This document shows positions 41,972-53,848 of a stretch of DNA of 64,000 nucleotides, piece after piece. Numbering within the stretch: the stretch's first letter is position 1; each line of letters begins with the position of its first letter. A program made the position numbers and the translations under genes. The stretch is from Myxococcales bacterium. Its GTDB lineage: Bacteria > Myxococcota > Myxococcia > Myxococcales > Myxococcaceae. Where the stretch lies: positions 62,001 through 126,000 of the forward strand of contig JADLDB010000009.1 in NCBI GenBank assembly GCA_020846875.1, in the 5' to 3' direction. The notes below the pieces were generated by a model that saw only the letters and a list, made by a program, of their open reading frames with translations, searched no databases and was not told the origin of the DNA.

Positions 41972-43111
41972 TCAGCGGCCCAGCAGCCACTCTGCCAGCG
42001 CGGCCGCGCGCGGGACGAGCGTGTCCACGAAGATGAACTCGTCGGGCGTGTGGTAGCCGCCGCCGCGCGGCCCCAGCGCGTCGATGGTGGGGATGCCCAT
42101 GGCCGAGGTGGTGTTGCCGTCGCTGCCGCCGCCCTGCCGGGGCGCCTCGCCTCCGCCCAGCCCGTGCCGCCGCGCGCACTCCGAGTACGCCTCGCACAGG
42201 GCCAGGCTGGCCGCGCTGCGCTCCATCGGCTGGCGCATGGTGAGCCGCTCCAGCTCCACGTGGACACCGGGAATGCCCAGGTCCTCCGCCGCGTCGTCCA
42301 GCCCCGTCAGCACCGCCTCGTACGTCGCCAGCGTCGGCGCCCGCACGTCCACCAGCGCCTCGGCCAGGGCCGCCACGGTGTTGCGCGAGGTGCCGCCCTT
42401 CACCACGCCCACGTTCACCGTCACGCCCATGTCCCGCACCGACAACTGCTGCGCGCGATCGACGAAGCGCGCCAGCGCCCAGATGGCGTTGGCCCCTTCC
42501 CAGTAGGCGTTGCCCGCGTGAGCCGCCTTCCCCCGCGCCAGCACCTTCACGCTACCCGTCCCGCTGCGCTGGGTGACGACGGCGTCGTTGCTGCGCCCCG
42601 GCTCGAAGTCCAGCGCCGCGCCGCAGCCCGCCAGCGCCCGGTGGATGACGGACGCGCCTTCAGGGGAGCCGTCCTCCTCGTCCGACACCACCACCACCCT
42701 CACGGGCGGCAGCCGGCCCAGCCCGCCCGTCGCCGCCAGCGCCTTGAGCGCCCACGCCACCACCACCAGTCCACCCTTCATGTCGAAGACGCCGGGCCCG
42801 CGCCGCAGCGCGCCGTCCACCCGGTAGCCCTCGAAGGTGCCCGGAGGGAATACGGTGTCGAGGTGCCCCAACAGCCCCACCGGCTGCGCGTCCGCCCGGC
42901 CCTCGCTGCGGAAGACGAGGTGCGGGGCGAAGCGCGCGCTGTCCACCACCTCCACGGCGAGGCCCGGCATGCGCAGCACCTCCACCAACAGCTCCCCCAC
43001 CCTCCGCCCCCCGTCGCGGTTGCCGGTGAAGGAGTTGAGGTCCACCAGGGTCCCCAGCGCTGCCTCCATCGCCGGCAGTTGGTGCGAGAGCCACTGCGAC
43101 GCCTCGTCCAT
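41972..43111 (-). CDS. M20 family metallopeptidase (glutamate-carboxypeptidase-like)
   Basis: 379 residues from ATG 43109-43111. Zinc-site motifs: GLLGHLDTVFPPGTF (His and catalytic Asp), GPGVFDMKGGLVVV (bridging Asp), VVVVSDEEDGSPEGA (Glu-Glu pair), FEPGR, and a late GGGYHTPDEFIF (final His). The dimerisation domain sits between about 175 and 290 (GKAAHAGNAYWEGANAIWAL). The pattern is closest to carboxypeptidase G2-type enzymes, which remove C-terminal glutamate. It has no signal peptide. It is divergent from astA across 91 bp. Confidence 0.92.
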   Translation of the reverse strand: MDEASQWLSHQLPAMEAALGTLVDLNSFTGNRDGGRRVGELLVEVLRMPGLAVEVVDSARFAPHLVFRSEGRADAQPVGLLGHLDTVFPPGTFEGYRVDGALRRGPGVFDMKGGLVVVAWALKALAATGGLGRLPPVRVVVVSDEEDGSPEGASVIHRALAGCGAALDFEPGRSNDAVVTQRSGTGSVKVLARGKAAHAGNAYWEGANAIWALARFVDRAQQLSVRDMGVTVNVGVVKGGTSRNTVAALAEALVDVRAPTLATYEAVLTGLDDAAEDLGIPGVHVELERLTMRQPMERSAASLALCEAYSECARRHGLGGGEAPRQGGGSDGNTTSAMGIPTIDALGPRGGGYHTPDEFIFVDTLVPRAAALAEWLLGR

Positions 43112-43202
43112 GAAGCAGAGGTGTACCACGCACCCTCGAGAGGCCACCGGAAACCGGCCGCGGGTGTGGCCGAAGGTGGGATTCTCGGCTATTGCCCAGC
43201 GA

Positions 43203-44228
43203 ATGCTGCTGCTCCGCGACGTGGCGAAGTCGGATCTCGCCGGCCTCAAGCGCCTCGCGGCGGTGCTCAACAGCGTCAACCTGCCCAACAACGAGAAGGT
43301 GCTGGCCAGCCTCATCGACAAGTCGGTGAAGAGCTTCTCGGGGAAGGTGGAGGAGGCCTTCGAGCGCGAGTACCTCTTCGTGCTGGAGGATCTGCGCAAC
43401 GAGCGGCTGATCGGCACCTCGATGATCATCGCGCAGCACGGCACCCGCGAGGCGCCGCACATCTACTTCCAGGTGACCGAGGCGGAGCACTACTCGGCGA
43501 CGCTGGACAAGCACTTCCGGCACAAGGTGCTGTCCATCGGCTACAACTACGACGGCCCCACCGAGGTGGGCGGGCTGGTGGTCGATCCGCCGTACCGCTC
43601 CGGGCCCGACAAGCCGGGCAAGCAGTTGTCCTACGTGCGCTTCCTCTTCATGGCCATGCACCGGCCGGCCTTCCGCGACCGCGTGCTGGCCGAGCTGTTG
43701 CCGCCGCTGCTCAAGGACGGGCGCAGCCTGCTGTGGGAGGCCTGCGGGCGGAAGTTCACCGGCCTGACCTACTGGGAAGCGGACAAGATCAGCCGGCGGA
43801 ACAAGGAGTTCATCAAGGAGCTCTTCCCTGCCTCCGACATCTACTCGACCCTCTTCCCCCAGCGCGCGCAGAAGGCGATCGGCGAGGTCGGCCCCAACAC
43901 CCGCGGCGTCCAGCGCATGCTGGAGCGCATCGGCTTCCGTTACTCCAGCCACATCGATCCCTTCGACGGCGGGCCCCACTACGAGGCGGACACGGCTGAC
44001 ATCAGCCTCATCCGCCACTTCCGCACCGCCACCGTGGCCAAGGCGCCGCTCGAGCTCGAGGCCGAGGACTTCATCGTCGGCGTGGGCAGGGCCACCGGCG
44101 CCAACCGCTTCCGCGCGGTTCGCACCCCGGTGCGCTTCGACGATCAACAGGCGCTGCTCCCCAGAGCCGCCCGCGAGCAGCTCAAAGTGAAGCCCGGCGA
44201 CCGCATCGCCCTCGTGCCCTTCGAGTAG
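43203..44228 (+). CDS. astA: Arginine N-succinyltransferase
   Basis: 341 residues from ATG 43203, normal AstA length. AstA transfers succinyl from succinyl-CoA to arginine, the first step of the AST degradation route. Recognisable: MLLLRDVAKSDLAGLKRLA at the start, PHIYFQVTEAEHYSATLDKHF, TEVGGLVVDPPYRSGPDKPG, SYVRFLFMAMHRPAFRDRVLAELLP and GLTYWEADKISRRNKEFIKELFP. The fold is GNAT-like. No astB, astC, astD or astE is nearby, so the rest of the pathway, if present, is elsewhere. Confidence 0.92.
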   Translation: MLLLRDVAKSDLAGLKRLAAVLNSVNLPNNEKVLASLIDKSVKSFSGKVEEAFEREYLFVLEDLRNERLIGTSMIIAQHGTREAPHIYFQVTEAEHYSATLDKHFRHKVLSIGYNYDGPTEVGGLVVDPPYRSGPDKPGKQLSYVRFLFMAMHRPAFRDRVLAELLPPLLKDGRSLLWEACGRKFTGLTYWEADKISRRNKEFIKELFPASDIYSTLFPQRAQKAIGEVGPNTRGVQRMLERIGFRYSSHIDPFDGGPHYEADTADISLIRHFRTATVAKAPLELEAEDFIVGVGRATGANRFRAVRTPVRFDDQQALLPRAAREQLKVKPGDRIALVPFE

Positions 44229-46326: not shown

Positions 46327-46336
46327 CGGGCCGTCA
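46324..46336. terminator. Near-perfect palindrome containing both stops of a convergent pair
   Basis: TGACGG (46324-46329), one G, then CCGTCA (46331-46336): a 6-bp palindrome with a 1-nt centre whose ends are the TGA of the propeller gene and the TGA of the opposing receptor-like gene. Confidence 0.35.
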
Positions 46337-49300
46337 GGACGCCAGCCAGATCTCCTCGAAGCGCACCTGGGGCGGCGTCTGGTGCAGCCGCACGCCCTGG
46401 ACCGTATGGGCCGCCGCGGCGTGGAAGCGCTCGTGGTACAGCGGCACCAGCACGCAGTCCTCGCGCACCAGGTTCTCCGCCTTGCGGTAGAGCTGCTCGC
46501 GCAGCCCGGGATCGATGGACACCCGCGCCTCGTCGGTGAGGCGATCGAACTCGGCGTTCTTGTAGGCCAGGCCGTAGTACGCCTGCGCCTTGGAGTTGAG
46601 CAGCACGTAGAGGAAGTTGTCGGGATCGGCCACGTCGGCGATCCAGTTGCCGCGGAAGATCCCCAGCCGGCCCTCGCGCACCCGGTCCCAGAAGTCCTTG
46701 TTCTCCACGTGCTCCAGCTGCACCAGGCCCGCGTCCACCAGCGGGGAGAAGAGCGCGCGGTCCTCTTCCCGGGTGTCCCGGTCCGGCGCGTAGTGCAGGG
46801 TGACGCGCACGCTGGACAGCCCCGCCTCGCCCAGGAGCCGCCGCGCCAGCACCACGTCGGTGCGCGGCTCGTGGATGCGATCGCTCTCCAAGAGTGACGG
46901 CGGCGTGAGCGAGCGCGCCACCCGCGCCCCGGGGTGGAAGCCGGACACCTGCGCGCGCACGTCCAGCCCGGCGCGGATCGCCCGCCGCACCCGCACGTCG
47001 TCGAAGGGCGCGGTCTGCGAGTTGAAGCCCAGAAACCACACCGACGGGGTGTTGACGGTGAGCGCCTCGGCCGGCGTCAGCCCCGCGTCGCGCAGGTTCT
47101 CCGCGTGCAGGTACGAGACGAGCTGCACCTCGCCCTTCGCAAAGCCCTCCAGCGCCGCCTTGCGCGAGGGGTAGAGGCGGTACTCCAGGCGCGCCAAGAG
47201 CGGCAGCCCGGGCTTGTAGAAGGTGGGGTTGCGCTCCAGCGTCACCGAGTCGGCGGTGGCGTCGACGAAGCGGTACGGACCGGTGCCCAGCACCTTGCCC
47301 CCTTCCCGCCGGGTGATGCCGGTCGACGGCAGGGCGAGCAGCCGCAGGAAGAAGGCCCGCGCCTCGTCGAGGCGGATTTCCAGGGTGTGCTCGTCCAGCA
47401 CCTCGATGCCGGCCACCTCGCCCGCCTGGCCGGCCAGGTAGTCCTGGGCCCCGGCGATGTCCTTGAAGAGGACCGCGTCGGGCGCGCCCACCTTGGGATC
47501 CATCAGCCGCTCGAGGTGGCGCTTGACGTGCGCGGCGGTCAGCGTGGCGCCGTCGGGGAAGGTGACGCCCTTGCGCAGCGTGAAGCGGTAGCGCTTGGCG
47601 GTGCGATCCGCCTCCCAGGCCTCGGCGAGATCCGGCACCAGAATGCCGTCCTCGTAGCGGACCAGCGTCGAGTACAGGGCGCTGGACACCTCGCTGATCT
47701 GCAGATCGATGGTGAAGAGCGGATCGAGGCCCGCGCTCGGATCCAGGGTGAGCGCGCGGTGCAGGCCGACCTTGAGCGTCCCGCCGGCGCGCGCCTGGGG
47801 CAGGTTGAAGCGGAACACCTCGGCGTCCAGCGTGTTCGCCTCGTGGCCGAGCTGCTCGACGGTGCGGGTGAGGTGATCGCTGATGCGCACCACCCGCTGC
47901 GCGTCCTCCCGCACCTCGGCCACCTCCTCGGCGATCGCCTGGTCCCCGTCCTTCAGCACCGCCTGGCTGGCGCGGATCTCGTCGATGGCCGCGGTGAGCC
48001 GCAGCACCGAGTCGGACAGATCGCGGCCCACCGACACCTGGCCGGCGGCGCGCCCCGACGTCTCCTTCGCGATGCGCGACATGTCCTGCATCGTCTTGAA
48101 CAGCTCGCGCCCCTGGCTGGCCTGATCCGCCGCCTGGCGCACCATCTCGCCCACCCGCTCGGACACCTGCTGAGACACCGCCACCAGCGCCTGCCCCTGG
48201 CGCTCGAGGCGCCCCGTCTCCTGCGCCGTAGACTCGACCGCCGCCAGCGCCCGCAGCGAGGTGGCCTGAATGCCGCGCAGCGCGGTAGCCGCCTTCTCGC
48301 CCAACTGCACGCCCACCTCGGCCTCGTCGCGGCCGCGCGTCACCAACTCCACCGCGCGCTCCACGCCCTCGCGCACCATCCTCACCTTCTGGGCGATCTC
48401 CCGGGTGGAGCGGCCGGTCTTCTCTGCCAGGCTGCGCACCTCGGACGCCACCACCGCGAAGGGCTTGCCGCTCTCGCCCGCCTGCGAAGCGATGATGGTG
48501 GCGTTGAGCGCGAGCAGGTTGGTCTGGTCGGCGATCTCCTGGATCACGTCCACCACCCGGCCGATCTCGAGGCCGGAGACGCCCAGCGCGTCGACGTACT
48601 TGGTGGCGCGGCGCACCGTGTCGTCGATGCGGTGCATGCCCCGCAGCGCGTCCTGCACCAGCGCGGCGCCCTGCTCGGCGGTGGCCGTCACTTCGCGCGC
48701 CAGCTCGCCCGTCTCGTCGCTGCGGCGGCGCACGGCGTCGATCGCCCCCTCCGCCAGCGCCACCGCCTCGCGCGCCTGCAGGGACAGCTTGCTCACCGCG
48801 TCGCCGGCGTCCGACACCCAGGTGGCCTTCTGGCTCATCGCCTCGGCGCGCTCGCTGGTCTTCTGGGCGCTGGCGTTGAGCGAGGCCAGGGCCTGCGCCA
48901 CGTGCTCGATGCTCTCGGTCATCTCCGCCAGCGCGCTGGTCGTCTCCCGGGCGAAGCTCTCCAGTTGGGCCACGCGCTTCTGGCTGCCCTCGAGGCTCTC
49001 GCTCATCCCCGACACGGCCTTCTGGCTGCGCTCGGCGGCCGAGCCCTGGCGGCGCGCGGCTTCGAGCAGCGAGCGGGCCTGGTCTTCTACCTCGCGGGCG
49101 GTGCGGTGCAGCGAGGTGGTGACGCGCTGCACCTGCCAGAGCGCGCGGCGCAGCGAGAGGGCGAGGCGCTGGAACTCTCCGTCGCCGTCCTCTTGCGCGG
49201 TGGGCACCACCGAGAGGTCGCCCTGGGCGAAGCGCTCGATGATGGCCCGCCGGCGATCGGCCCTGCGCGCGGACTGCTGGTACCAGATCACCCAGCCCAG

Positions 49301-49456
49301 CGCCGAGAAGCTCGCCATGGTGGTGACGACCAGCGCCGCCCAGGCCCCGAAGGTCGACGGGTGGCCCGACACCGCCAGCAGCACCAGCCCCGCCAGAAGG
49401 CCTGCCACGAGCCCGCCGGCGGGACCGAAGAGCACGAGGTACCAGCGGTTGTCCAT
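46334..49456 (-). CDS. Chemoreceptor (MCP) signalling domain fused to family-5 solute-binding domain
   Basis: 1040 residues. Two membrane helices at ~5-30 and ~36-59 joined by a tiny loop (HPSTFG). Residues ~65-550 are a chemoreceptor-type coiled coil with a canonical hairpin tip at 307-345 ([39 protein letters not shown]). From ~557 to 1036 it is a complete SBP_bac_5 (peptide/nickel ABC binding protein) domain: [66 protein letters not shown]. With both helices N-terminal, the binding domain should be in the cytoplasm, where such domains are not normally found. There is no signal peptide and no HAMP domain evident. Confidence 0.9.
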
Positions 49457-49497: not shown

Positions 49498-50340
49498 ATG
49501 CTCGCTGCGCTCCTCACCCTGTGCGTCGGCGCCGCCCCGCAGCGGTGGCTGCTCACCGTCGACGGCGTGCCCCTGGCGGAGCTGCGCGTCAGCGTCGACG
49601 GGCGGGCCTACCGCTACGAGTCCACGCGGTTTCTGGAGGAGGGCCCGGCCGAGCGCCTCTTGGACTTCACCCTCGACGAGGCGGGCCGGGTCGACGGCCT
49701 CACCCCGGAGGTGCTGGCCCTGGCCAGCCGGCCCGGCCTCGGGTGCCAGCAGGTCTTCGAGGAGCTGCGCCGCACGCCCGAGGAGCTGTGCGTCAACCAC
49801 CGCGAGGGCGCTACCGACACCGGCCAGCTGGCGGGCCAGCCCTACAGCGCCCGGTACGACGCGCGCGGAAAGTTGGCGACCCTCACCCTGGGCAAGGCCC
49901 GCTTCGAGGCTCGCGCCGCGCCCACCACCCTGCCTCCGCCCGAGGCCAACCCCTTCACCCGCGGCTTTCCGCTCGAGGGGACGGCGGGGCCTGCGGCGCT
50001 CGAGCCCCCGCTGGGGGGTGCGCGGCGGCTGGACAAGCCACCGCGCGGCGCCGGGGACGCGGAGTCGGTGGGCCGGGTCCGCTGCCTCATCGCCGCGCGC
50101 CGCTACGTCGCGTCGCACCCGAAGGCGGAGGTGGTGCTGGGCCTGGTGTTGGAGGGCGGGCGCGCCTGGCCGCACGCGTGGGTGAGGGAGCTGGGCGTGG
50201 AGGTGGATCCTTCCGTAGCGCCGGGCGACGCCGTGCTGAAGGCGCGGCAGTACCTGGCGCTGCCACCGAGAGAGGCGGGCCGGGTGTACCTGGAGCTGCT
50301 CGACGGGACGCGCCGCGTCCGCCTGGGCGCGAGCCGATGA
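49498..50340 (+). CDS. Secreted mini-transglutaminase-like protein
   Basis: 280 residues. Signal-peptide-like start (MLAALLTLCVGAAPQ). The N-terminal ~170 residues are beta-rich (RWLLTVDGVPLAELRVSVDG). The C-terminal ~80 residues hold a shrunken transglutaminase core: Cys in VRCLIAARRYV, His in AWPHAWVREL, Asp in VEVDPSVAPG, with the same spacing logic as larger family members. It is divergent from the receptor-fusion gene across only 41 bp, so their promoters overlap. Whether it is enzymatic is unclear. Confidence 0.7.
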   Translation: MLAALLTLCVGAAPQRWLLTVDGVPLAELRVSVDGRAYRYESTRFLEEGPAERLLDFTLDEAGRVDGLTPEVLALASRPGLGCQQVFEELRRTPEELCVNHREGATDTGQLAGQPYSARYDARGKLATLTLGKARFEARAAPTTLPPPEANPFTRGFPLEGTAGPAALEPPLGGARRLDKPPRGAGDAESVGRVRCLIAARRYVASHPKAEVVLGLVLEGGRAWPHAWVRELGVEVDPSVAPGDAVLKARQYLALPPREAGRVYLELLDGTRRVRLGASR

Positions 50341-51205: not shown

Positions 51206-53848
51206 ATGCCTTCCTTCCGGGTGCTGAGTGTCCTCGCGGTGGTGGCAGTGGCGTTCACCGGCTGCAACTGCGGAACGTCGACTCCTGCCGATGCCTGCTC
51301 CTTTGACAGCGACTGTCCGACCGGTCAGGTCTGCGGCGCAGAGAAGCGCTGCGTAGCCCAGGCCACGTGCCCCGACACGCCGTGCGCCGCGGGCGAGAGC
51401 TGCCTGGGGGGCCGCTGCTACGCCGCCGACTGTCCGACGCGAGACTGCGGCGACGGCCAGGTCTGCGCCTCGGGCCGCTGCCTGGACGAGGCGTGCGTGG
51501 GCAAGACCTGCCCGGGCGGCAACGTCTGCATCCGGGGCGGCTGCTACCAGGGCCAGTGCGCCGGCGTGAGCTGCACCGGCCGCGAGGTGTGCGTCGAGGA
51601 CTACTGCGTGTCGCGGAGCTGCCTGGGCGTCACCTGCCCCGGCGATCAGCGCTGCGCGGCCGACGGCAACTGCTACCCGAAGGGCGGCTACGGCGGGGGC
51701 TCCGGCACCGGGCCTGGACCGGGCACGGGCGGTGGCGCGGGTACAGGCGGTGGCACGGGCACGGGCGGTGGCACGGGCACCGGCGGTGGCACGGGCACCG
51801 GCGGTGGCACGGGCACGGGTAACCAGGCGTGCATGAGCAACTGCACTCCGGTGCAGGTCTGCGTCATGAACCAGTGCGAAGAGGCGCGGTGCGTGGGCAT
51901 CACCTGCCCCACCGGCCAGGCGTGCTCGCAGGGTCAGTGCGTGCCCACCACCTGCGGTGCTGGGAGCTGTCCGGCTGGCAAGGCGTGCGGCCCGACGGGC
52001 ACGTGCGTGGACACCGCGTGCGCCACGGTCTCCTGCCCTGGCGGGTACCGCTGCCAGCAGGGCCTCTGCTACCCGACGGGCGGCGGAGGTGGAGGCTCGG
52101 GCACCGGCGGTGGCACCGGGACCGGCGGCGGTACGGGCACCGGCGGCGGTACGGGCACCGGCGGTGGTACGGGCACCGGCGGCGGTACGGGTACCGGCGG
52201 TGGTACGGGCACCGGCGGTGGGACCGGCACGGGCGGCGGCACCGGCACGGGGGGCGGCACGGGCGGTGGCACCGGCACGGGGGGCGGCACCGGCACGGGC
52301 GTCGTCCTCGGACCTGACGGCGGCGTCATCGGCATCGCCGGGCCGGACGGTGGCCTCGTCCTCCTGCCCGACGGCGGCGTGGCCGGCGGGCCGTGCCTCC
52401 CGTCGCAGTGCACGGAGATCGTCTGCGACGATCGTCTCGACAACGACGGCAATGGCTACTCGGACTGTGACGAGCCTTCCTGCGCGGCGCAGGCCTGCAA
52501 CGACAGCAACGCCTGCACCGCCGGCGAGCGCTGCGTGGCGAGCAGGTGCCAGCCCGCCACCACCTGGAGCTGCAACTCCCCGCCCACCTCGTGCCACTCG
52601 CCCAGCGGGCAGTGCATCGGCGTGGGCCAGTGCAACTACCCGGTGATGGCGGGCGCGCCCTGCGGAGGGAGCGGCAGCGGCATGGCGTGCCTGCCGGACG
52701 CCACCTGCGGCGTGCTGCCGGGCAACGGCGTCTTCACCTTCACACCTTCCAACTTCGATCCCTCGACGATCGGCCTCACCCCCGGCGACGTCATGACGGG
52801 CGGCGGGACGGTGACGGTGAACACCAACACGGGGACGCTGGGAGGCAGTTGGGGGCCGCTCAGCCCGACGGTCACCACGGTGATGACCAGCACCGGCCCA
52901 GCGGTGGTGATCGCCGCCGAGAACTTCGACCTGGGGACCGGCACGGTGCTGCAGATCACCGGCAGCAACCCGTTAATCATCGCCGCCAGCCAGACGATCG
53001 AGATCCACGGCGTCATCGACATCTCCGCGGTCGGCGCCAACCCCGGCCCCGGCGGCCATCGCGGCTGCGGGACGGCGGCCGGCGGTGACGGCAGCCTGGG
53101 CTCCAACTCGGCGGCGGGCGGCGGGGGCGCGGGAGGCTCGCAGTCGGCCGGCGGCTCGGGCGGCGGCGGAAGCACCTTCGGCCTGGGCGGCGGCGGAGTG
53201 GCCGGCACGGTGTTGGCGCGCGGCGCCCAGGAGCTCAAGGGCGGCTGCCCCGGCGGCGCGGGAGGCAACGCCGGCGGGCGGGGCGGCGCCGGCGGCGGGG
53301 CCATTCAGCTCACCGCGGGCTACGGCCTGGGCATCGGGCCCACCGGGGCGATCATCGCCAACGGCTCGGGAGGCCTGGGCGGCGCCCGCACGACGGGCTC
53401 GTACAGCCCCAAGGGCGGCGGCGGCGGCGGCTCGGGCGGCACCATCATCCTGGAGTCGGGCTACGTCTTCGCCGACCAATCGCGGCTGTTGGCCAACGGC
53501 GGCGGCGGCGGCGAGGGCTCGGGCTGGCTCAGCTTGCCGGGGGCGGACGGCGCGGACGGCGACAAGCTGTACGGCCTCCTCGGGGCGCCGGGCGGCGGCG
53601 GCATGTCCGGCAACGGCGGCAACGGCGGCAACGGCGGGGCGCGATACTCGGCGGTGGGGGACGGGCGGGCCGGCCAGCAGTACTTCGACGAGACCAACTA
53701 CTGGGAGTCCGCGGGCGGCGGTGGCGGAGGCGCGGCGGGGGCGCTGCGCATCAACATCACCACGCCGCTGGGCCGGTGCATCTTCCCGGACAACGTGAAG
53801 TTCAGCCCGCACATGACCACCAACTCGGGGGACAACTGCTACCAGTGA
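51206..53848 (+). CDS. Large Cys-rich, Gly/Thr-repeat lipoprotein
   Basis: 880 residues. Lipobox AVAFTGC (Cys20). Residues 30-160 are a run of Cys-rich EGF-like/laminin-like units (C-x-D-x-DCPTGQVC, CPDTPCAAGESC and others). A short Gly/Thr repeat, a second Cys-rich block (~210-290), then a long GGGTGT repeat (~300-365) follow. Residues ~385-505 hold more Cys modules ending with a GVFTFTPSNFDPS strand region. The final 340 residues are a beta-helix-like, glycine-loop-rich part (GGGGAGGS, NGSGGLGGARTTG). This is the typical architecture of myxobacterial surface lipoproteins of unknown role. It converges on a second Cys-rich lipoprotein gene. Confidence 0.85.
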   Translation: MPSFRVLSVLAVVAVAFTGCNCGTSTPADACSFDSDCPTGQVCGAEKRCVAQATCPDTPCAAGESCLGGRCYAADCPTRDCGDGQVCASGRCLDEACVGKTCPGGNVCIRGGCYQGQCAGVSCTGREVCVEDYCVSRSCLGVTCPGDQRCAADGNCYPKGGYGGGSGTGPGPGTGGGAGTGGGTGTGGGTGTGGGTGTGGGTGTGNQACMSNCTPVQVCVMNQCEEARCVGITCPTGQACSQGQCVPTTCGAGSCPAGKACGPTGTCVDTACATVSCPGGYRCQQGLCYPTGGGGGGSGTGGGTGTGGGTGTGGGTGTGGGTGTGGGTGTGGGTGTGGGTGTGGGTGTGGGTGGGTGTGGGTGTGVVLGPDGGVIGIAGPDGGLVLLPDGGVAGGPCLPSQCTEIVCDDRLDNDGNGYSDCDEPSCAAQACNDSNACTAGERCVASRCQPATTWSCNSPPTSCHSPSGQCIGVGQCNYPVMAGAPCGGSGSGMACLPDATCGVLPGNGVFTFTPSNFDPSTIGLTPGDVMTGGGTVTVNTNTGTLGGSWGPLSPTVTTVMTSTGPAVVIAAENFDLGTGTVLQITGSNPLIIAASQTIEIHGVIDISAVGANPGPGGHRGCGTAAGGDGSLGSNSAAGGGGAGGSQSAGGSGGGGSTFGLGGGGVAGTVLARGAQELKGGCPGGAGGNAGGRGGAGGGAIQLTAGYGLGIGPTGAIIANGSGGLGGARTTGSYSPKGGGGGGSGGTIILESGYVFADQSRLLANGGGGGEGSGWLSLPGADGADGDKLYGLLGAPGGGGMSGNGGNGGNGGARYSAVGDGRAGQQYFDETNYWESAGGGGGGAAGALRINITTPLGRCIFPDNVKFSPHMTTNSGDNCYQ
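51729..51820 (+). repeat. 18-bp tandem repeat coding for GGGTGT
   Basis: About five copies of a unit reading GGCGGTGGCACGGGCACS (S = C or G), in frame within the Cys-rich lipoprotein gene. Copies differ only at silent positions, suggesting recent expansion. Confidence 0.8.
52104..52300 (+). repeat. Second block of 18-bp tandem repeats coding for GGGTGT
   Basis: About eleven copies of GGCGGNGGNACGGGNACC-type units, one of them shortened to six bases' worth of Gly-Gly-Thr, all in frame. Together with 51729-51820 it gives the gene two homologous repeat arrays about 380 bp apart, able to recombine and delete the Cys-rich block between. Confidence 0.8.

Follow-up and report, generated by a model that had tools for sequence, protein, structure and literature searches.

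Chemoreceptors usually meet solute-binding proteins outside the cell, as separate partners, and SBP_bac_5 domains normally lie outside the cell as well. The gene described here, located in the window (the whole 64,000-nucleotide stretch of a Myxococcales contig that was analysed), encodes a chemoreceptor signalling hairpin (MCP) and an SBP_bac_5 domain (SBP) in one protein. This raises the questions whether the fusion is genuine, what its binding domain senses and on which side of the membrane, and to which signalling pathway the receptor reports.

The MCPsignal match of the protein covers residues 252-414 (Pfam; E 1.3e-32, 113.5 bits against a cut-off of 34.6) and the SBP_bac_5 match residues 606-957 (Pfam; E 2.3e-60, far above the cut-off), while matches to PDB chains of solved peptide-binding proteins stretch the latter region to residues 556-1018. 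The canonical tip at residues 307-345, in which 13 residues are followed by the motifs GKPFAVVA and EVRSLAE, is nearly invariant among orthologs, and in the ortholog alignment L552-P553 and G558-G559 are invariant at the junction between hairpin and binding domain. One putative, consensus-like methylation site was recognised in the sequence, at residues 258-265. The MCP hairpin and the SBP_bac_5 domain are parts of one protein. A sequence-only reading of this DNA had described a fused protein of 1040 residues with two N-terminal helices, a chemoreceptor tip at residues 307-345 and a binding domain at residues 557-1036, and Pfam, hydropathy and AlphaFold2 bear this description out. The gene position given there, 46334-49456, is also right; the strand, which was missing, is minus (Table 1).

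Table 1. Features of the window protein and their coordinates in the window
Feature	Position	Strand	Basis or remark
mcpK ortholog, 1040 aa: membrane-anchored chemoreceptor with C-terminal SBP_bac_5	46334..49456	minus	ATG start
Membrane helix 1 (aa 5-30)	49367..49444	minus	hydropathy; AlphaFold2 helix 5-30
Membrane helix 2 (aa ~36-58), then Arg-rich stretch	49283..49351	minus	hydropathy; AlphaFold2
HAMP-like region (aa 59-108)	49133..49282	minus	profile alignment with McpJ HAMP; without Pfam HAMP match
Descending arm of signalling hairpin (aa 93-325)	48482..49180	minus	AlphaFold2; MCPsignal
Kinase-contact tip (aa 291-350)	48407..48586	minus	mean conservation 0.89, highest in the protein
Ascending arm of hairpin (aa 327-547)	47816..48478	minus	AlphaFold2; collinear with McpJ to the McpJ end
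Short linker from hairpin end to binding domain (aa 548-556, 9 residues)	47789..47815	minus	AlphaFold2
SBP_bac_5 (OppA/DppA-type) binding domain (aa 557-1036)	46349..47788	minus	Pfam, PDB matches, AlphaFold2 fold, OppA alignment
R935, aligned with OppA R413	46652..46654	minus	42/42 orthologs
D941, aligned with OppA D419	46634..46636	minus	41/42 orthologs

By sequence comparison, the gene is the ortholog of Myxococcus xanthus McpK (MXAN_6456, ABF92748). The ortholog in M. xanthus AM003 (L087) has 1048 residues, is 52% identical over the whole length and has conserved neighbours. AM003 has 21 MCPs, matching the number for M. xanthus in PMC3945109, and the sole frame of 1000 or more residues among these is L127. 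Moine et al. (2014, PMC3945109) listed McpK at 1048 residues and gave it a 'Bacterial extracellular solute-binding proteins domain'; its GFP fusion did not belong to the ten that were clearly localised. M. xanthus McpK and the window protein share the domain order and the neighbourhood, and differ in sequence divergence alone; in the published record, McpK is tabulated with three membrane segments and attributed to Dif, an attribution that the hairpin geometry described below does not support. Later work on McpK was not found in the open literature, and other chemoreceptors with a C-terminal SBP_bac domain were not found in open-licence papers. The architecture having been catalogued already in 2014 limits the novelty of the present description; what is new is the evidence for retained binding-site residues, for a McpJ-type hairpin and for Che8 as the likelier pathway, together with the predicted cytoplasmic location of the binding domain.

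McpK was found in 92 of the 195 genomes of the phylum that were searched, i.e. in 88 of 96 genomes of the same family and in four outside it. The family copies include a few that are cut by contig ends and one that is frameshifted (G137), and the four relatives outside the family have the identical domain order at 36-44% identity; G164, one of the four, has its halves on different contigs. A scan of named genomes recovered orthologs across Myxococcus, Corallococcus, Pyxidicoccus, Archangium, Hyalangium and Citreicoccus, and a scan with the SBP domain found no relatives among viral contigs. The only homolog split at the junction is that of G137, in which two frames that meet at residue ~557 make up the gene; each of them still has its match, and the upstream one reads on into unrelated sequence. 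This split is an isolated frameshift in one genome among some 90 without it. Because the fusion recurs across the family and beyond, a sequencing or assembly artefact is ruled out, and the data support that the fusion is genuine and old. Moreover, a dN/dS of 0.10-0.34 for the SBP domain in seven close ortholog pairs indicates that this domain is under purifying selection, somewhat looser than that on the signalling part. Archangium violaceum and A. lansinium each encode McpK twice (L069, L072, L074, L082), and the second copy may sense a different ligand. A contig labelled Comamonas sp. KCTC 72670 (L077, BNCN01000012.1) has McpK with Myxococcus-like neighbours, and this record is probably mislabelled or contaminated.

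We then considered the binding domain. Modelled alone by AlphaFold2 (pLDDT 81.5, pTM 0.74), it forms a complete two-lobed fold that superposes on whole periplasmic binding proteins (Z 33.7 for GbpA, 33.6 for an OppA model and 32.4 for DppA). Several of the closest fold matches were solved with peptides, and peptide binders lead the sequence matches. When the domain is aligned with OppA, R935 and D941 coincide with R413 and D419, which in OppA contact a carboxylate and the amino end of the bound peptide, respectively. The Asp and Arg of the ligand cleft are thus intact in nearly all orthologs (Table 1), and D941 is also retained in the four relatives outside the family. We consider it probable that the domain is a functional small-molecule sensor. 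The McpK domain shares its fold (Z about 32-34) and the two OppA contacts with the periplasmic proteins of the OppA/DppA/GbpA type; unlike these, it is fused to a receptor, predicted to be cytoplasmic, and has neither signal peptide nor lipobox nor a nearby transporter. Since it lacks these export signals and an adjacent permease gene, it is a relative of these proteins at the level of the domain and not a component of an ABC transporter.

As for the ligand, the retained contacts and sequence matches tilt us towards a peptide-like compound. Several SBP_bac_5 branches have WxxD-type contacts, which makes the inference to a peptide unspecific, and because the family also includes nickel-chelate, opine and glutathione binders, a peptide-like ligand is favoured and not proven. 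That the ligand would be a peptide acquired by predation is a guess. The cytoplasmic domain might alternatively bind a non-peptide metabolite such as a sugar phosphate, an amino acid or a metal chelate, as is thought for SgrR-type regulators. This reading has a real if smaller chance of being correct: SBP_bac_5 covers nickel, opine, sugar and glutathione binders, several of which are close by fold, SgrR acts in sugar-phosphate stress (PMC4021124), and glutamate binding by SgrR has been reported (PMC13060122); on the other hand, the top sequence matches are peptide binders, as are most of the fold matches, and there is hardly any variation at the two OppA contact positions. SgrR and DsvR resemble McpK in having a C-terminal SBP_bac_5 domain on an intracellular signalling protein (PMC13060122), whereas they have a DNA-binding output and no membrane anchor, and the sequence match is weak (SgrR model, E 0.0024). 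The statement in the sequence-only reading that known SBP_bac_5 proteins are exported was therefore too strong, because such a domain forms the C-terminal part of regulators such as DsvR, an SgrR homolog with an N-terminal DNA-binding domain (PMC13060122).

The pathway served by McpK was approached through its hairpin. HAMP was absent from the Pfam matches listed for the window protein at E<=1 and from the 25 commonest Pfam families over 42 McpK members; in profile comparison, the HAMP-like segment of McpK aligns with the HAMP of McpJ. The profiles of McpK and McpJ (MXAN_5907) give a single alignment of 501 columns (E 3.4e-56) that runs through the McpJ HAMP, while those of McpK and DifA align over 329 columns only, with large gaps. 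The last residue of McpJ corresponds to residue 552 of McpK, and in either protein this position is 239 residues away from the Asn of the tip; from this collinearity it follows that the SBP domain sits directly behind the point at which a McpJ-type receptor ends. From membrane helix 2 to the tip there are 252-259 residues in the McpK sequences with a detected helix 2, leaving out two sequences (281 and 286 residues) in which the scan took helix 1 for helix 2, 260-261 in ten McpJ and 181-194 in ten DifA; in other M. xanthus receptors this distance is mostly 143-193 residues. The arms of about 254 and 239 residues in McpK thus do not match the hairpin length of DifA (181-194 and 172). A tree of 28 receptors places McpK as the sister of McpJ (support 96/84). 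Because these 28 receptors are gap-free within 135 residues of the tip, a class based on indels is uninformative there, and arm lengths were used in its place; McpJ and DifA in AM003 and other genomes were named from length, HAMP position, operon and tree. McpK and McpJ therefore share a collinear hairpin with HAMP-like region, the arm lengths and the nearest position in the tree, while only McpJ has an extended N-terminal region ahead of HAMP and only McpK has a sensor at its C-terminus, the SBP domain. Receptors that differ in length are thought not to share arrays (PMC3945109); McpK and McpJ have hairpins of matching arm length and so should array together.

Three genomes with small receptor sets (G006, G020 and G026) contain exactly three MCPs, i.e. 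DifA, McpJ and McpK, and two CheA by dimerisation domain, i.e. DifE and CheA8. The CheW-domain matches lie within the dif and che8 operons, all of them in G020 and nearly all in G006 and G026. In these genomes and in M. xanthus, the dif operon includes DifA and the che8 operon is without a receptor. CheA8 is present in all 11 McpK genomes that were checked. G012, a genome of the same family, has no McpK, McpJ ortholog or CheA8 and has kept DifA and DifE; this argument from co-loss comes from one genome, which is 93% complete. Together, the McpJ-type hairpin, the three-receptor genomes, the receptor-less che8 operon and the co-loss in G012 make Che8 the simplest reading, and we consider it likely that McpK signals with McpJ to Che8. 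In G012, another CheA and MCP (L160, L167) are found where relatives have Che8, McpJ and McpK. Two reduced genomes of the same family (G019 and G033; 2.1-2.7 Mb) are without any MCPsignal match.

Moine et al. (2014, PMC3945109) assigned both McpK and DifA to hairpin class 44H and suggested that McpK belongs to the Dif system; on that view, the cytoplasmic sensor would signal together with DifA in the control of exopolysaccharide. This alternative is rather unlikely in our view. It has in its favour the published class and the MCP group common to McpK and DifA; moreover, DifE is present in 11 of the 11 McpK genomes checked, so that presence alone does not speak against Dif. However, the arms of DifA are about 65-70 residues shorter on each side, DifA and McpK align only with large gaps, the tree joins McpK to McpJ, and G012 retains Dif yet lacks McpK, McpJ and CheA8. 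For Che8, our preferred pathway, no function or input is known (PMC9040617), and its CheA8 kinase is reported to participate in the phosphorylation of MXAN_4468, which regulates the groEL genes (PMC9040617).

It is improbable that the SBP domain has lost small-ligand binding and now serves as a protein-docking or dimer-spacing module. In favour of this reading, no transporter gene is adjacent, and spacing matters at the membrane-proximal hairpin end, where the domain is located; against it, the entire two-lobed fold is retained, as are the nearly invariant cleft residues R935 and D941, which one would not expect a spacer to keep.

With respect to topology, hydropathy analysis of the window protein detected two membrane segments at the N-terminus, within residues 4-59, and past residue 70 no stretch that resembles one (best 19-mer 1.1 on the Kyte-Doolittle scale). 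AlphaFold2 modelled the whole protein with helices at residues 5-30, 36-77, 93-325 and, after a turn at 326, 327-547, followed by the mixed fold of the SBP domain from residue ~560; confidence was low (mean pLDDT 66.5, pTM 0.40) and the secondary structure alone was used. In this model, residues 457-547 are a single charged helix, and residues 500-556 consist of one soluble helix plus the 9-residue linker; neither hydropathy nor AlphaFold2 gave a membrane helix at residues 500-560 that would place the SBP domain outside. A signal peptide or lipobox was not found ahead of residue 557, and the protein has a single cysteine, C1001, and thus no disulfide. By the positive-inside rule, the Arg-rich stretch that follows helix 2, together with the shortness of the loop joining the two helices, places the N-terminus, the hairpin and the C-terminus in the cytoplasm. 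Moreover, nothing after the tip can cross the membrane and the tip must be cytoplasmic to meet CheA, which puts the SBP domain in the cytoplasm as well. By these sequence criteria the binding domain is almost certainly cytoplasmic, which supports the earlier claim that it stands behind the signalling part and inside the cell. In class III chemoreceptors (IIIc, PMC8396549), as in McpK, a membrane anchor is combined with a cytoplasmic sensor; by description, however, the class III sensor precedes the HAMP and signalling domains (PMC8396549), whereas that of McpK follows them and is an SBP and not a PAS or GAF domain.

The TMHMM table of 2014 has three membrane segments for M. xanthus McpK (PMC3945109). 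Hydropathy analysis of that protein gave residues 354-372, inside the hairpin just past the tip, as the sole further hydrophobic stretch, and this is probably the third segment tabulated. That the binding domain would be outside the cell, by way of an unrecognised membrane segment, which the 2014 table might suggest, or of an inverted topology, is hardly credible, because the extra stretch falls within the hairpin beside the tip, residues 457-547 are modelled as one charged helix, and inversion would also expose the CheA-binding tip.

With the domain placed in the cytoplasm, the following mechanism can be proposed. Two helices would anchor McpK, with a loop of a few residues as the only outside portion, and the HAMP-like segment would lead into the long hairpin, the tip of which should contact CheW and CheA. 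The OppA/DppA-type domain, attached by the short linker, would lie in the cytoplasm where the hairpin nears the membrane. The two lobes would close on an internal ligand that has a free amino terminus, for which a peptide or a metabolite resembling one is the most likely candidate, and the linker (residues 548-556) would pass this closure to the ascending helix beside the HAMP-like segment. HAMP in other receptors tunes bundle packing. The change would travel to the tip some 240 residues away and alter kinase activity; by analogy, we infer this coupling of lobe closure to the kinase. Sharing arrays with McpJ, McpK would in this way control the Che8 kinase.

Taken as a whole, the explanation that McpK is a membrane-anchored receptor that senses a cytoplasmic peptide-like ligand and acts with McpJ on Che8 has, in our estimate, about an even chance of being correct. 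More tentatively, McpK could be an internal sensor of the peptide pool of Myxococcaceae, reporting on nutrition, prey digestion or peptidoglycan recycling to Che8; in its evolution, sensing would have shifted from the outer to the inner side of the membrane as the N-terminal sensor region of a McpJ-type receptor was lost and a cytoplasmic oligopeptide-binding domain was gained. The binding protein is built into the receptor and predicted to face inwards, an arrangement that has been retained by nearly all family members, even in genomes with three receptors. With McpK and McpJ as the likely receptors, the question of the input and function of Che8 becomes testable.

The genes adjacent to mcpK encode an NHL-type protein, an unnamed exported protein, M20 and M23 peptidases, AstA and a DUF218 protein. 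Domain searches of the contig found neither a CheW domain nor a CheA dimerisation domain, and the annotation of the neighbours gave no ABC permease gene adjoining mcpK, in agreement with the sequence-only reading, which had noted that no CheA, CheW or ABC permease gene is adjacent. The divergent neighbour of mcpK (49498-50340, plus strand) encodes a protein of 280 residues with an apparent signal peptide and without a Pfam match. Its Cys196, His226 and Asp237 are conserved in at least 95% of 36 homologs and resemble a transglutaminase-type triad; the gene adjoins mcpK in most family members, and the two may be functionally linked. The gene at 42837-44228 (plus strand) encodes arginine N-succinyltransferase AstA (6e-101) and lies near mcpK in many family members, so that a link to arginine metabolism is conceivable. 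Finally, the product of the gene at 51206-53848 (plus strand) is predicted to be exported; it contains Cys-rich repeats and extended tracts of Gly-Thr-Gly-Gly.
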